This document shows positions 8,790-59,081 of a stretch of 64,000 bases of DNA, piece by piece. The notes under the pieces were generated by a model. That model saw only the letters and a program-made list of their open reading frames with translations, was not told where the DNA came from and did no database searches. Source of the stretch: Myxococcales bacterium (lineage in GTDB: Bacteria > Myxococcota_A > Polyangia > Polyangiales > Polyangiaceae); the NCBI GenBank assembly GCA_947473045.1, contig CANJCO010000006.1, positions 1-64,000 of the forward strand, in the 5' to 3' direction. Position 1 is the stretch's first letter; every line of letters starts with the position of its first letter. Position numbers and translations under genes: made by a program.

Positions 8790-10056
8790 TTTGTTCACAA
8801 ACTGCGGCGGTATCACCTCACCCAACCCGTTTTGGCTCGCGTCCGCGCCTCCCGCCAACAGCGGCGCGCAAATTCAGCGGGCGTTCGACGCCGGCTGGGG
8901 CGGCGCAGTGTGGAAGACGCTCGGGCAACCCATTCAGAACGTGTCGAGCCGGTTTGGCGCGACGAACGTCCGGGGGGTGCAAGGCGCGGGATTCAACAAT
9001 ATCGAGCTGATCACCGACCGTTCGCTCGAGATTAACTTCGCCGAGATTTACGACACCAAAAAGAAGTACCCGAAGCACGCCGTGGTGGTCTCGCTCATGG
9101 TCGAGACGAAGCAGGAGTGGAAGGACCTCATCAAGCGGTCCATCGACGCCGGCGCCGACGGCCTCGAGCTGAATTTCGGATGCCCGCACGGCATGTGCGA
9201 GCGCGGAATGGGAAGCGCGGTCGGCCAGGAGCCCCGCGTCAATCAGGAGATCACGTCGTGGGCCGTCGAGTTTTCGAGCGTGCCGGTGCTCGTGAAGCTC
9301 ACGCCAAACGTCTCCGACATTGTCCCTCACGGACTCGCGGCCAAGCGAGGCGGCGCGCACGGCGTGTCGCTCATCAACACCATCAAGAGCATTATCGGCG
9401 TCGACATCGACCGCTACGTGCTCGAGCCGCGCGTCGCGCAGCTGAGCACCAACGGCGGCTACTGCGGCTCCGCAGTGAAGCCAATCGCGCTGCACATGGT
9501 CGCCGCGCTGGCACGTGAACCGAAGTTCGGATTGCCCATCAGCGGCATCGGCGGAATCTCCAACTGGCGCGACGCAGTCGAATTCCTGCTGCTCGGATCG
9601 AGCTCGCTCCAAGTTTGCACGGAGGTCATGCTGCGCGGATATCGGGTCGTCGAAGACATGATCGACGGCCTCGAAGAATACATGCGCACGCACGGATTCG
9701 AGCGCCTCGACCAGATGATCGGCAAGGCAATTCCGAGCTTCTCCGAATGGGGAAATCTCGACTTGAACTACGAGACGGTCGCGAAGATCGACGCCGACAA
9801 ATGCATCGGCTGCCACCTGTGCGTGGTGGCGTGCCACGACGGCGCTCACCAGTGCATTCACCCCGTAAAAGACGGCAAAACGCGGGTGCCCGTGATTGAC
9901 GAGAGCGAATGCGTCGGCTGCAATCTCTGCAAGATTGTCTGCCCGGTCGACGACTGCATCACGATGGTGCAAGTCGACAACGGATTCGCGCCGTCGACGT
10001 GGAATGAGCACGTCACCCAGGGCAAACCGCTTCGCCCCAAAAAAGGCGCTCACTAA
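8782..10056 (+). CDS. preA: NAD-dependent dihydropyrimidine dehydrogenase, PreA-type subunit
   Basis: DHOD-like barrel (SPNPFWLASAPP, ELNFGCPHGM, PVLVKLTPNV) plus C-terminal 2x[4Fe-4S] motifs CIGCHLCVVACHDGAHQC and CVGCNLCKIVCPVDDC; overlaps preT. Confidence 0.95.
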   Translation: MPDLFTNCGGITSPNPFWLASAPPANSGAQIQRAFDAGWGGAVWKTLGQPIQNVSSRFGATNVRGVQGAGFNNIELITDRSLEINFAEIYDTKKKYPKHAVVVSLMVETKQEWKDLIKRSIDAGADGLELNFGCPHGMCERGMGSAVGQEPRVNQEITSWAVEFSSVPVLVKLTPNVSDIVPHGLAAKRGGAHGVSLINTIKSIIGVDIDRYVLEPRVAQLSTNGGYCGSAVKPIALHMVAALAREPKFGLPISGIGGISNWRDAVEFLLLGSSSLQVCTEVMLRGYRVVEDMIDGLEEYMRTHGFERLDQMIGKAIPSFSEWGNLDLNYETVAKIDADKCIGCHLCVVACHDGAHQCIHPVKDGKTRVPVIDESECVGCNLCKIVCPVDDCITMVQVDNGFAPSTWNEHVTQGKPLRPKKGAH

Positions 10057-10200
10057 CAGGCCGTTGAAGAACGGCCTGCTAGCCTTTCATCTCGGGGAGG
10101 TATGCACCTCCCCGCCCCGAAAAACGCGGTTTTTCGGGGTCCCCACCCCACGCAATTGGCTTCGCCAATTACTATCAGGGTGTTTTTCAACACCCTGATA
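10057..10200 (+). repeat. Five-hairpin intergenic repeat, copy A
   Basis: Consecutive perfect palindromes: 10057-10078 (CAGGCCGTT-GAAG-AACGGCCTG), 10093-10114 (CGGGGAGGT-ATGC-ACCTCCCCG), 10115-10139 (CCCCGAAAAAC-GCG-GTTTTTCGGGG), 10154-10170 (AATTGGC-TTC-GCCAATT), 10173-10200 (TATCAGGGTGTT-TTTC-AACACCCTGATA). Similar copies at 48216 and 57868. Confidence 0.95.
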
Positions 10201-10289
10201 AACTCACTAAGCAGGTGCCTACGAGCCGTGACCGAGGTGAACCGGTCAGCCGCCTGCCAGTCTTTCAAACCCGACGCCACGAGGAAACC

Positions 10290-19075: not shown

Positions 19076-19702
19076 ATGCGCAGAGGTTCCGTAGCCGTCG
19101 TCCTCGCGCTGGCTGTGGCTTCCGCGGCTTGCGCAGGGTCGCGCGTGCCCGACGCGAAGACCGCGATTGAGGCCTACGCGCGCGCTGCGGAGAGCGGCGA
19201 CAGCGACGCTCTGTACGGCATGATGACGGAGGCCTCTCAGCGCGGCCTGACGCAGGCGCAGTTGCGCGAAGCAGTGTTGGCCGAGCGCGCCGAACTTGCG
19301 GAGCAAGCGCGCGGTCTGACCGGGAGCGACGCGAGCGTGAAAGCGATCGCGCGGCTGCGTTTCGAAGACGGCGAAGAGGCCGCCCTCGCCCTCGAGGAAG
19401 GTCGCTTTCGCGTTTCGGCGGCGGGCGCCCTGCCCGGCGGCGGACGCACTCCCGAGGAGGCGCTCGATCAGCTGCGGCGCGTGCTCGCGAGGCGCAGCTA
19501 CGCCGGGCTGATGCGCGTGGTGACGCCGCAAACGCGGGCGCTTATCGAGCGCGATTTGCGCTCGCTCGTGGAGGGCCTCGAGAAATCCGACACGCTGTCT
19601 CCTCAGATCACGGGCGACTCGGCGACCGTCAAGGTGCCGGGTGGCCATCAGGTGCGCCTGCGCCGGGACGGTGCGATCTGGCGCGTCGACGACTTTGACT
19701 AG
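19076..19702 (+). CDS. Hypothetical lipoprotein
   Basis: MRRGSVAVVLALAVASAACAGS signal/lipobox; downstream ATG chosen over 19034. Confidence 0.65.
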   Translation: MRRGSVAVVLALAVASAACAGSRVPDAKTAIEAYARAAESGDSDALYGMMTEASQRGLTQAQLREAVLAERAELAEQARGLTGSDASVKAIARLRFEDGEEAALALEEGRFRVSAAGALPGGGRTPEEALDQLRRVLARRSYAGLMRVVTPQTRALIERDLRSLVEGLEKSDTLSPQITGDSATVKVPGGHQVRLRRDGAIWRVDDFD

Positions 19703-19743
19703 CAGGACGTTGAAGCAGCGGCCTGCCAGCGCCAAGCCGCTGG
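19703..19743 (+). repeat. Solo terminal hairpin related to the five-hairpin repeat (copy D)
   Basis: CAGGACGTTGAAGCAGCGGCCTGC differs by one base from the terminal hairpin of copy B (CAGGCCGTTGAAGCAGCGGCCTGC on the minus strand); fills the gap between two convergent stop codons. Confidence 0.8.
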
Positions 19744-47387: not shown

Positions 47388-48215
47388 TTGATGGAAGCGC
47401 CCATGCTCGCCGTGCCTCGACTGGGCCGCGTGCTCAAGGTCGCGATGGTTCTCGTCGCCATTTTCGGCGTCGGAGGCGGTCTGCTCTGGAGCGCCGTGCC
47501 AGGCGGTCAGAGCGTGCTCGTCAATTGGCTGTTTTGCAATCCTGCGATGGTCCTGTCGAGGCCCTGGACGCTCGTCACCGCCGGCCTCTGCACCAATCCG
47601 GAGAGCTACGGCCACCTCGTCGTCACGCTCCTCGGGCTGTATTTTCTAGGTCCCGACCTTGAGAGACGGTGGGGCGGAGCGCGGTTCGCGAGGCTGCTTT
47701 TAATCTCGGTCGTGGCCGGCTTCGTGCTCTCTGCGGCGCTCGACGCGCTCGCTCCCGGGCAGGCTCGCTTGTTTCATCCGCCGGTCATGTTTGGCACCGG
47801 CGCTGCGCTCTCCGCGCTGGCAACGGCATGGTCACGCGAAAATCCGGGCGCGCAGATTCGCCTCTTCTTCTTCCTGCCGGTCTCCGGAAAAGCCCTGCTG
47901 TGGGTCACGCTCGGCTTCTGCGCGCTGGGGCTCGTCTACCCCGCTGGAGTGCCCGAAGGCGTCGCGTCGCCGTTCGGCGGCGTGATCGCAGGGCTGCTGC
48001 TGGGGGGCACACCCTCGCCGCTGCGAACGCTCTACTTGCGCGGCAAGCTCGCGGTGCTGCGCCGCGGCTCGCCCCCCATGCGCATCGACCTCGGCCCCGA
48101 GCGACCGGTCCGCCGGGCACGCGCGGGCGGCCCCGAGCTGCGCGTCGTCCCGGGCGGCCTGGGGGACGAGCGCGACAAGCCTCGCGGCGCCCGCGACAAG
48201 CGCTACCTCAACTAG
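47388..48215 (+). CDS. Rhomboid-like membrane protein lacking catalytic Ser/His
   Basis: Six or so TMs; NPAMVLSRPWTLVTAGLCTNPESYGHLVVTLLGLYFLGPDLERRWG; FGTGAALSALATA where GxSG is expected; ASPFGGVIAGLLLGG where His is expected. Confidence 0.75.
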   Translation: MMEAPMLAVPRLGRVLKVAMVLVAIFGVGGGLLWSAVPGGQSVLVNWLFCNPAMVLSRPWTLVTAGLCTNPESYGHLVVTLLGLYFLGPDLERRWGGARFARLLLISVVAGFVLSAALDALAPGQARLFHPPVMFGTGAALSALATAWSRENPGAQIRLFFFLPVSGKALLWVTLGFCALGLVYPAGVPEGVASPFGGVIAGLLLGGTPSPLRTLYLRGKLAVLRRGSPPMRIDLGPERPVRRARAGGPELRVVPGGLGDERDKPRGARDKRYLN

Positions 48216-48359
48216 CAGGGCGCGCGAAAAACACCCTGCCAGGAATTGGCGAAGCCAATTGCGTGGGGTGGGGACCGGCGAAAAACCGCGTTTTTCGGGG
48301 CGGGGAGGTGCATACCTCCCCGAGATGAAAGGCTAGCAGGCCGCTGCTTCAACGGCCTG
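48216..48359 (-). repeat. Five-hairpin intergenic repeat, copy B (inverted)
   Basis: Inverted relative to copy A: 48244-48260 (AATTGGC-GAA-GCCAATT), 48279-48297 (CGAAAAAC-CGC-GTTTTTCG), 48301-48322 (CGGGGAGGT-GCAT-ACCTCCCCG), 48337-48359 (CAGGCCG...CGGCCTG); spacers GCGTGGGGTGGGGACC and AGATGAAAGGCTAG match copy A. Confidence 0.95.
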
Positions 48360-49385
48360 TTAGGCGCGCCCGCTGGTTTCGCGGCGAGCTCGCGCTGCGA
48401 GTTTGTGCGCGAGCCGGAGCGCGGAGCGCATGCCTCGCGAATCCGCGTCGAAGCGTGCCGCGCGGTCGTAGGCGGTGCCGTGATCGACGCTCGTGCGAAT
48501 GATGGGCAGCCCCAACGAGACGTTCACTTCGCGGCCGAACGCGAGCAGCTTCATCGGGATGGTCGCCTGATCGTGATACATCGCCACTACGCCGTCGTGC
48601 TCGCCCGCGGCTGCAAGCCGAAACGCCGTCTCGGCTGCAATCGGACCCGCCACGCGCGCTGACATTCCGGCGCGCGAAAGCCTCGCCCGCGCCAGCTCGA
48701 TGCCACTGGCGATGCGCGACTCTTCGCGACCGAGCAGCCCTCCCTCTCCGGCGTGCGGGTTGAGCGCGGCGATCGCGAGTCGAGGCTCTTCGTGGCCCAG
48801 ACGATGCAGCAGGTTTGCAAGCCAGTAGGTCGCGCGCGCCACCGCGACAGCCGTAACGGCGCGCGGCACATTCGCGAGCGGCAAGTGCGTCGTCACGAGG
48901 GCCGTCGTGAGCCTCGCGGACCAAAACGCCATCACGACTTCAGCGGCCCCGAGGCGCTGCTGCAAGTGCTCGGTGTGTCCGAGAAAATCCGCCGAGCCCG
49001 GCGCGCCGCTTCGGGCGATGACGTCCTTGCTGACCGGTCCGGTCACCATTGCGTCGAAGGCGCCGGTCGCAACGAGATCGCACGCCGCGTCGACCCACGC
49101 GAGCTGCGCAGCGCCCGTCGCCGCCGTGGGCGCGCCCAGAACGCGATCGCGCGGCGGCAGCGAACGGGTCGGCTGCCACTGAAATACCCCTTCTGCGGTG
49201 ACGCGCGCCGGGTCGCGCACGCGCGCGGGAGACGTAATGCCAAGAGCGCGGCTCGCCCGGTTGATTGCGCCCGCATCTCCGACGAGCAGCACGGTCGCGC
49301 GCTTGAGCGACGCCGCCCCCGCGAGCGACACCTCGGGACCGATGCCGCAAGCGCATCCCACGCTCACAACGAGCCGCGTAGTCAT
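48360..49385 (-). CDS. pdxA: 4-hydroxythreonine-4-phosphate dehydrogenase
   Basis: CGIGPEVSLAGA, TGPVSKDVI, GHTEHLQQRLG, ALNPHAGEGGLLGREE, YHDQATIPMKLLAFGREVNVSLGLPIIRTSVDHGTAYD. Confidence 0.95.
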   Translation of the reverse strand: MTTRLVVSVGCACGIGPEVSLAGAASLKRATVLLVGDAGAINRASRALGITSPARVRDPARVTAEGVFQWQPTRSLPPRDRVLGAPTAATGAAQLAWVDAACDLVATGAFDAMVTGPVSKDVIARSGAPGSADFLGHTEHLQQRLGAAEVVMAFWSARLTTALVTTHLPLANVPRAVTAVAVARATYWLANLLHRLGHEEPRLAIAALNPHAGEGGLLGREESRIASGIELARARLSRAGMSARVAGPIAAETAFRLAAAGEHDGVVAMYHDQATIPMKLLAFGREVNVSLGLPIIRTSVDHGTAYDRAARFDADSRGMRSALRLAHKLAARARRETSGRA

Positions 49386-57867: not shown

Positions 57868-58013
57868 CTGGCAGGCCATTCAACAGCGGCCTGCCAGCCT
57901 TTCATCTCGGGGAGGCATGCGCCTCGCCGAGATGAAGAACGCGGTTTTTCAGGGGCCCCACCTTACGCAATTGGCTTCGCCAATCCCTGGCAGGGTGTTT
58001 TTCGAGCCCCCTG
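57868..58013 (+). repeat. Five-hairpin intergenic repeat, copy C (diverged)
   Basis: 57868-57897 (CTGGCAGGCC-N10-GGCCTGCCAG), 57902-57935 (TCATCTCGG-g-GAGGC-ATGC-GCCTC-g-CCGAGATGA), GAAGAAC-GCG-GTTTTTC, 57970-57984 (ATTGGC-TTC-GCCAAT), terminal CAGGGTGTTTTTC...CCCTG; same order as copy A. Confidence 0.93.
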
Positions 58014-59081
58014 CTAGTCGGTCTCTTCGATAAACAGCGACGGCGGCGCATCGCAGGCTTCGGCGGGCTGCTCCACCTGCACGGTCACGTACTCGATCCG
58101 GTACGTCTCGCGCAGGTGGCGCGCAAGCTTCGAGCCCAGCTGCGGCTCGCTGCCGTCGGCGTGAATGTGAACGGCCACGGCCTCGTGACCGGCGCCGAGC
58201 GTCCACACGTGCATGTCGTGAACTTCGGCGACGCCGGGAAACCCGAGGATCGCCTTTCGCATCGCGGGCACGGGAAGGTGCTCGGGGGCCGCCTCGAGGA
58301 GCACGACAATGGCGTCTTTCAACAGGCGCAGCGCACCGACGCCAATGATGACGGCGACCAGAAAGCTCGCGATCGCGTCTGCCGAAACCGGGCCGCCCGC
58401 GCGCACGATGATGGCCGCCACCAGCGCCGCGATCGAACCCAGCGTGTCGCCGATGAGGTGCAGACGGGCGCCGCGAAGGTTGAGGGTATGTCCTCCGGCG
58501 CTGTGGTCGTGGTCGTGGCCGTGGTCGCCCGGCGCATGGGCGTGACCGATGACGTCGTGCAGCAGCCAGGCGCTGAGGCCGTTGACAACGAGCGCGCCGA
58601 TCGCGACGTAGAGCATGATCGACCCCTCGGGGCCCTCTTCGTGCCCCCGCAGCGCCGATATCGCGCGGCGCACGATTTCTGCGGTGGCGAGCAGCACGAG
58701 CATCGCGTTGACCATAGCGGCCACCGGCTCCGCGCGGCGGAGGCCGAAGGTGAACCGCGGCGTCGGGCGGCGCACGGCGACCCGCATGGCCACCAGGCTC
58801 ATCGCGAGGGCGAGGACGTCCATGAGCAGGTGCAGCGCGTCCGCCTGAAGCACGTTGCTGCGCGCCGCGATCGCGCCCGCGAACTCGAGCGTGAGAAACG
58901 ATGACACGAGCGCGAGCACCAGCGACAGGCGCTTGGCCTGTTTCGCCTCTTTCGGCGTGAACTCGCCCTTCGCGCCGGCCCGCGGCCCAACGACCGCGTC
59001 ACGCTTCGGGGCGGGCGCTGGCGCGTGATCGTGGCCGTGATCGTGGTCGTGGCCGTGGTGGTCGTGGTGGTCGTGGCTCAA
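58014..59081 (-). CDS. Cation diffusion facilitator family transporter
   Basis: His-rich N-terminus MSHDHHDHHGHDHDHGHDHAP; LQADALHLLMDVLALAMSLVAMRV; HLIGDTLGSIAALVAAIIV. Confidence 0.94.
   Translation of the reverse strand: MSHDHHDHHGHDHDHGHDHAPAPAPKRDAVVGPRAGAKGEFTPKEAKQAKRLSLVLALVSSFLTLEFAGAIAARSNVLQADALHLLMDVLALAMSLVAMRVAVRRPTPRFTFGLRRAEPVAAMVNAMLVLLATAEIVRRAISALRGHEEGPEGSIMLYVAIGALVVNGLSAWLLHDVIGHAHAPGDHGHDHDHSAGGHTLNLRGARLHLIGDTLGSIAALVAAIIVRAGGPVSADAIASFLVAVIIGVGALRLLKDAIVVLLEAAPEHLPVPAMRKAILGFPGVAEVHDMHVWTLGAGHEAVAVHIHADGSEPQLGSKLARHLRETYRIEYVTVQVEQPAEACDAPPSLFIEETD

Follow-up and report, generated by a model that had tools for sequence, protein, structure and literature searches.

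Insertion into CTAG-type target sites as the probable basis of the stop-to-stop placement of an IS5-type miniature element in a Myxococcales genome

IS5 of Escherichia coli encodes a DDE transposase and duplicates a 4-bp target of the form Py-T-A-Pu (YTAR), of which CTAG is the commonest (PMC5493358). According to the portions of their descriptions drawn on here, MITEPsy1 of Pseudomonas syringae is an IS5-related MITE with CTAG or YTAA as its insertion site and a 4-nt duplication (PMC3189936), and RUP of Streptococcus pneumoniae is an intergenic MITE of ~107 bp with more than 100 copies (PMC2229807). TnRErm46/ISRe46 of Rhodococcus equi targets CTAG, and the duplicated TAG supplies the stop of the target genes, whose function is not interrupted (PMC6794481).

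The repeat described here was analyzed in a window of 64,000 nucleotides, positions 1 to 64,000 of contig CANJCO010000006.1 of a Myxococcales bacterium. It has the YTAR duplication in common with IS5 of E. coli, but IS5 is autonomous, unlike this apparent MITE. The terminal repeats of IS5 also differ from those of the MITE. MITEPsy1 is similar in being small (~100 bp) and non-autonomous, with terminal repeats that resemble those of an IS5 relative, but it has few copies, and the cited portion of its description contains neither placement on stop codons nor a conserved core common to elements of different ends (PMC3189936). RUP, too, is presumed to depend on a resident IS of similar ends for mobilization in trans, but it is of the IS630 type with a TA target, and stop-codon placement of this sort does not figure in the cited portion of its description (PMC2229807). 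TnRErm46 differs in being a large autonomous resistance transposon with an NCTAGN duplication and different ends (PMC6794481).

In the window, 144 bp separate a rhomboid-like CDS from a convergent pdxA (Pfam matches Rhomboid and PdxA), and the gap is filled by one copy of the dispersed repeat, copy B (Table 1). An earlier note had correctly placed the two gene ends at 48215 (TAG) and 48360 and had equated the element with the gap between them. The repeat does fill this gap, but its true extent is 152 bp (48212-48363) and includes both stops, which lie inside the outermost tetranucleotides, CTAG on the left and TTAG on the right. The hairpins named in that note are present (AATTGGCGAAGCCAATT at 48244-48260 and CGGGGAGGTGCATACCTCCCCG at 48301-48322), and the core runs in the order AATTGGCGAAGCCAATT, GCGTGGGGTGGGGACC, CGAAAAACCGCGTTTTTCG, CGGGGAGGTGCATACCTCCCCG, AGATGAAAGG, followed by the right hairpin, CAGGCCGCTG..CAACGGCCTG. 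Both terminal hairpins are strong (fold z -4.3 and -4.7), and their inner arms also contain CTAG, which is unusual for an IS5 end.

Table 1. Features of copy B, its neighboring genes and the other copies in the window.
Feature	Position	Strand	Remarks
Rhomboid-family gene	47388..48215	+	TAG 48213-48215 is the element's left edge
pdxA	48360..49385	-	TAA 48360-48362 is the element's right edge
Complete copy B of the putative MITE with both flanking tetranucleotides, 152 bp	48212..48363	+	Aligned copies and flanks: similarity stops at YTAR
Left target-site copy, CTAG	48212..48215	+	Contains the rhomboid TAG; same TAG at the same residue in element-free G001
Left terminal hairpin CAGGGCGCGCGAAAAACACCCTGCCAG, IS5-type end (CAGGGCG..CACCCTG)	48216..48242	+	
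Core hairpin H2 AATTGGCGAAGCCAATT	48244..48260	+	Stem variable, GRA loop retained
Conserved G-rich spacer GCGTGGGGTGGGGACC	48261..48276	+	
Core hairpin H3 CGAAAAACCGCGTTTTTCG	48279..48297	+	Compensatory changes among relatives
Core hairpin H4 CGGGGAGGTGCATACCTCCCCG	48301..48322	+	Compensatory changes among relatives
Conserved core, 85-86 nt (model R1)	48244..48329	+	Matches in 27/184 Polyangiales genomes
Right terminal hairpin CTAGCAGGCCGCTGCTTCAACGGCCTGTTAG	48333..48363	+	
Right target-site copy, TTAG (minus strand CTAA)	48360..48363	-	Its TAA is the pdxA stop
Copy A, 149 bp	10053..10201	-	94% identical to copy B; gene 8791-10056 (+) ends on its TAA
Copy C	57868..58016	-	85% identical to copy B; gene 58014-59081 (-) ends on its TAG
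Solo terminal hairpin without core	19699..19730	+	Gene 19076-19702 (+) ends on its TAG

Copy A had been credited with the same length as the gap, but it measures 149 bp and does not lie between convergent stops: a gene stop is at one edge and a tandem downstream gene at the other. An 8-bp direct repeat (TTAGTGAG) lies on either side of it, separated from its left end by five additional bases (TTTAT), an arrangement that does not fit a plain 4-bp duplication. The solo hairpin is the right hairpin occurring alone. The dispersed element is 149-152 bp long and carries no transposase, and it has 40 scored matches genome-wide and 81 full or partial copies in the sampled stretches, where copies at contig ends were possibly counted twice. 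The genome is GC-rich, 92% coding and 99.98% complete, and many of its contigs start or finish in one near-identical, recent subfamily, indicating that the repeat breaks the assembly. At two further loci of this genome (L261 and L274), the flanks are element-end sequences, so that the elements there entered other copies or sites beside them and represent nested or tandem arrays. At another (L257, G000:C54, ~147-1620), a recent MITE copy with CTAG at either side has received, at its CTAG edge, an IS701-family transposon whose transposase has 412 aa and whose ends read GCACTACTTTGACA; this transposon represents a second IS family using CTAG as its target word.

Judged by its ends and content, copy B appears to be a non-autonomous IS5-type MITE. 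The genome contains two DDE_Tnp_1 matches, one of which belongs to its single IS5-subgroup transposon, located on contig C83, whose 356-aa transposase belongs to the IS5 family (NF033581; IS5_4, 273 bits versus a cut-off of 140) and also scores with the IS1182 model, below cut-off. The boundaries of this IS, CTAA-CAGGACGTTGAGAAA...TTTCAACACCCTG-CTAA, form a perfect target duplication, and the MITE ends, CAGG(G/C)(T/C)G(T/C)TGAA, match its ends. It is a candidate for the autonomous partner in the same genome, and its transposase may mobilize the MITE. Homologs of this transposase that are 53-56% identical occur on plasmids. Among the eight plasmid ISs examined, five have CAGG..GAAAAA-type ends with exact duplications (CTAG, TTAG, TTAG, CTAA and TTAG), a sixth has ends of the same type with CTAG/TTAG, and the remaining two have no clear duplication; one plasmid IS starts with CAGGGTGTTGAAAAAC, identical to the recent MITE subfamily. 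A DNA search of PLSDB returned no match to the element, and no transposase homolog was found at E 1e-30 in twelve core-bearing relatives.

Traces of the same duplication are visible in the MITE itself. Across 53 two-edged copies, the left and right tetranucleotides correlate at the first (p = 0.003) and last base (p = 0.008), and among multi-base duplication registers the best one coincides with those 4 bp. The tetranucleotides are identical in only 12/53 of these copies, and in copy B (CTAG/TTAG) three of the four bases agree; mutation of the unconstrained edge accounts for most of the mismatches, though not obviously for all. In many copies, a gene stop lies in a CTAG preserved at one edge and the opposite edge now reads CTGG or CCAG, a decay that would follow if constraint acts on the stop alone, and one recent copy has CTGG at both sides.

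Placement was assessed in sampled genome stretches using a home-made gene caller (a hexamer model trained on long ORFs). Tabulated against the nearest stops, the copies are not randomly placed: 37 element edges lie at offset 0, exactly at the stop of a gene running into the element, only two genes read beyond an element edge, and the other called stops lie dispersed upstream. Exact stops are about evenly divided between left and right edges, and in this genome the element has no preferred orientation with respect to genes. The exact-edge stops (n = 37) comprise 30 TAG, 6 TAA and 1 TGA, against a background of 69% TGA, 22% TAG and 9% TAA in the same genome. C or T precedes the stop, completing YTAR, at 34/36 TAG/TAA edges versus 74/212 (35%) other TAG/TAA stops (p = 8e-14), which indicates that the signal is YTAR and not the stop codon. 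The highly specific insertion proposed in the earlier note is thus right in substance, but the specificity is for YTAR, CTAG above all, and not for gene ends as such.

Stops make up 68/219 (31%) of the non-coding YTAR sites and 37/49 of those in convergent regions, where target availability therefore nearly suffices; classified elements lie on stops in 16/21 cases overall and in 10/10 within convergent regions. A stop is occupied by 54% of two-edged copies versus the 31% of non-coding YTAR sites, suggesting that purging or a further 3'-end preference adds to target choice. Convergent regions hold 10/21 classified elements versus 49/219 (22%) of the available YTAR sites (p = 0.014), a preference that purging of harmful insertions would give. 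Four convergent gene pairs in the sampled genome share one CTAG/TTAG without an element.

Synteny was compared in a congener (G001), since the rhomboid gene does not adjoin pdxA in distant Polyangiaceae. Thirteen genes that end on an element have good orthologs there, and the element is absent at all 13. Most orthologs terminate at the corresponding residue or a few residues away from it, with larger offsets for pdxA (~7 residues) and for L142 and L263 (~5-6). Their stops are TAG/TAA in 9/13 cases versus 30.5% expected (p = 0.005), and C or T precedes the stop in eight of these nine (p = 0.001). Orthologs that end at or near the same position in a YTAR context indicate that the element entered a pre-existing CTAG. 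The rhomboid/pdxA junction is itself conserved in the congener and element-free: the rhomboid protein ends ...KRYLN with TAG at the same residue, followed by GGTTCAA (7 bp) and the pdxA stop, TGA, which does not share the rhomboid CTAG.

We put at roughly 93% the probability that the repeat is an IS5-type MITE that targets YTAR with a 4-bp duplication and survives at stops, which explains the stop-to-stop position of copy B. The transposase would recognize CAGG(G/C)(T/C)G(T/C)TGAA ends, insert into YTAR with a preference for CTAG and duplicate the 4 bp. CTAG, as its own reverse complement, offers TAG on both strands; with this word rare in the genome and insertions within genes presumably purged, surviving copies would be found largely at stop codons. 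At 48212, insertion would have occurred into a CTAG that probably served as the shared stop of the convergent rhomboid gene and pdxA, and duplication of the tetranucleotide would have given each gene a separate stop at an element edge. The right copy would later have changed from CTAG to TTAG, turning the pdxA TAG into TAA, a silent change. When the flanks of copy B are read across the element, pdxA would end in TAG on the rhomboid CTAG. Sequence comparison points to a shared CTAG ancestor at this junction and to transposition of the MITE by a C83-type transposase acting in trans, both of which we infer. What the sequences show directly are the ends, the parent-type IS with its perfect duplication, the YTAR bias and the element-free orthologs with a stop at or near the same residue. 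The stop-to-stop placement would arise because the chosen target is the palindromic stop CTAG.

The earlier note also raised selection for a 3'-end function. A regulatory element selected at convergent gene ends, either a bidirectional terminator or an mRNA-end stabilizer, would agree with the strong hairpins at both ends, the enrichment in convergent regions and the covarying core structure. However, no intrinsic terminator (GC stem plus T tract) was found in the element, both orientations with respect to genes occur in this genome, contigs of the assembly break off within its near-identical recent subfamily, which fits a mobile repeat, and the orthologous junction in the congener lacks it. 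The exact placement moreover follows from YTAR availability in convergent regions, so that such a function is not needed, and we regard it as unlikely. Less probable again, and in our judgment very improbable, is that the element brings its own stop codons and inserts anywhere, with only in-frame insertions surviving. Most copies do have TAG in both directions at their edges, but the element-free orthologs terminate at the same residue or close to it, mostly in TAG/TAA and in a YTAR context, out-of-frame stops inside the element number 2 versus 37 exact ones, and the homologous ISs show the tetranucleotide to be a target duplication.

Palindromic hairpin units, solo hairpins and high copy number would also suit a REP/BIME mobilized by a RAYT (Y1 tyrosine transposase), an origin that we find barely credible given 0 matches to Y1_Tnp (PF01797) in the 99.98% complete genome, with control genomes positive, and given ends and target copies that are IS5-type instead. 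An Rfam covariance-model search with the element remained negative even at E 1. The right end of copy B, GTTAGGC, recalls an integron attC site, but copy A reads GTTAGTG, and the resemblance is therefore fortuitous.

Apart from its insertion into YTAR, the favored IS5-type MITE carries a core that is conserved in part of the Polyangiales. Its covariance model, with matches in the genomes counted in Table 1, has 68 cells changed on both sides versus 21 in shuffles, with 94.5% paired. A conserved peptide was considered and rejected: the core varies in length by 1-2 nt among genomes and its compensatory changes alter codons, indicating that it is non-coding. The ends around the core vary by lineage. 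Those of G001/G005 (CAGGCTGNTGAAAA) resemble those of the source genome; in G133/G138 the ends are ATGRSCGAGC and the edge carries TAG, TAA or TGA, and in G022 and G116 they are of the CTGAAGGTCTGTC type, with a TGA marking the 5' edge. In G022 (loci L181-L200), 18/21 copies have their start precisely on a called TGA stop and every one is in sense to that gene, and in the congener G112 most orthologs stop at the same residue or close to it. No variable target duplication was found in the G022 family beyond TGA on both sides, and the YTAR argument does not cover this family because CTGA is common. Possibly, though we hold this with considerable doubt, the core is a structured RNA (or single-stranded DNA) module under selection, widespread in Polyangiales, that was acquired by several end types (CAGG..GTTGAA, CTGAAGGTCTGTC.. 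and ATGRSCGAGC..) and forms the 3' UTR of many unrelated genes in some lineages.

Three other loci deserve mention. A copy 95% identical to copy B lies at a contig start in another genus (L112, G006:C52:1-118) and is closest to the recent subfamily, reflecting contamination or recent transfer. A lone core copy (L220) on the single 16,040,666-bp contig of G144 sits between two long palindromic hairpins with CTCAATC-like starts. In Labilithrix (L032), a different long hairpin, CTAAAGGGACGAG...CTCGTCCCTTTAG, follows pdxA and incorporates its TAA at the base of the stem.

The stop-to-stop MITE belongs to an already known kind of element. Why elements of differing ends carry one conserved core is a distinct puzzle that lends itself to testing. 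A transposon that targets the CTAG palindrome can colonize a compact GC-rich genome almost harmlessly, because CTAG is there mostly a stop or non-coding and the duplication keeps the stops of both genes. It can be predicted from this rule where other GC-rich genomes may accumulate such elements.
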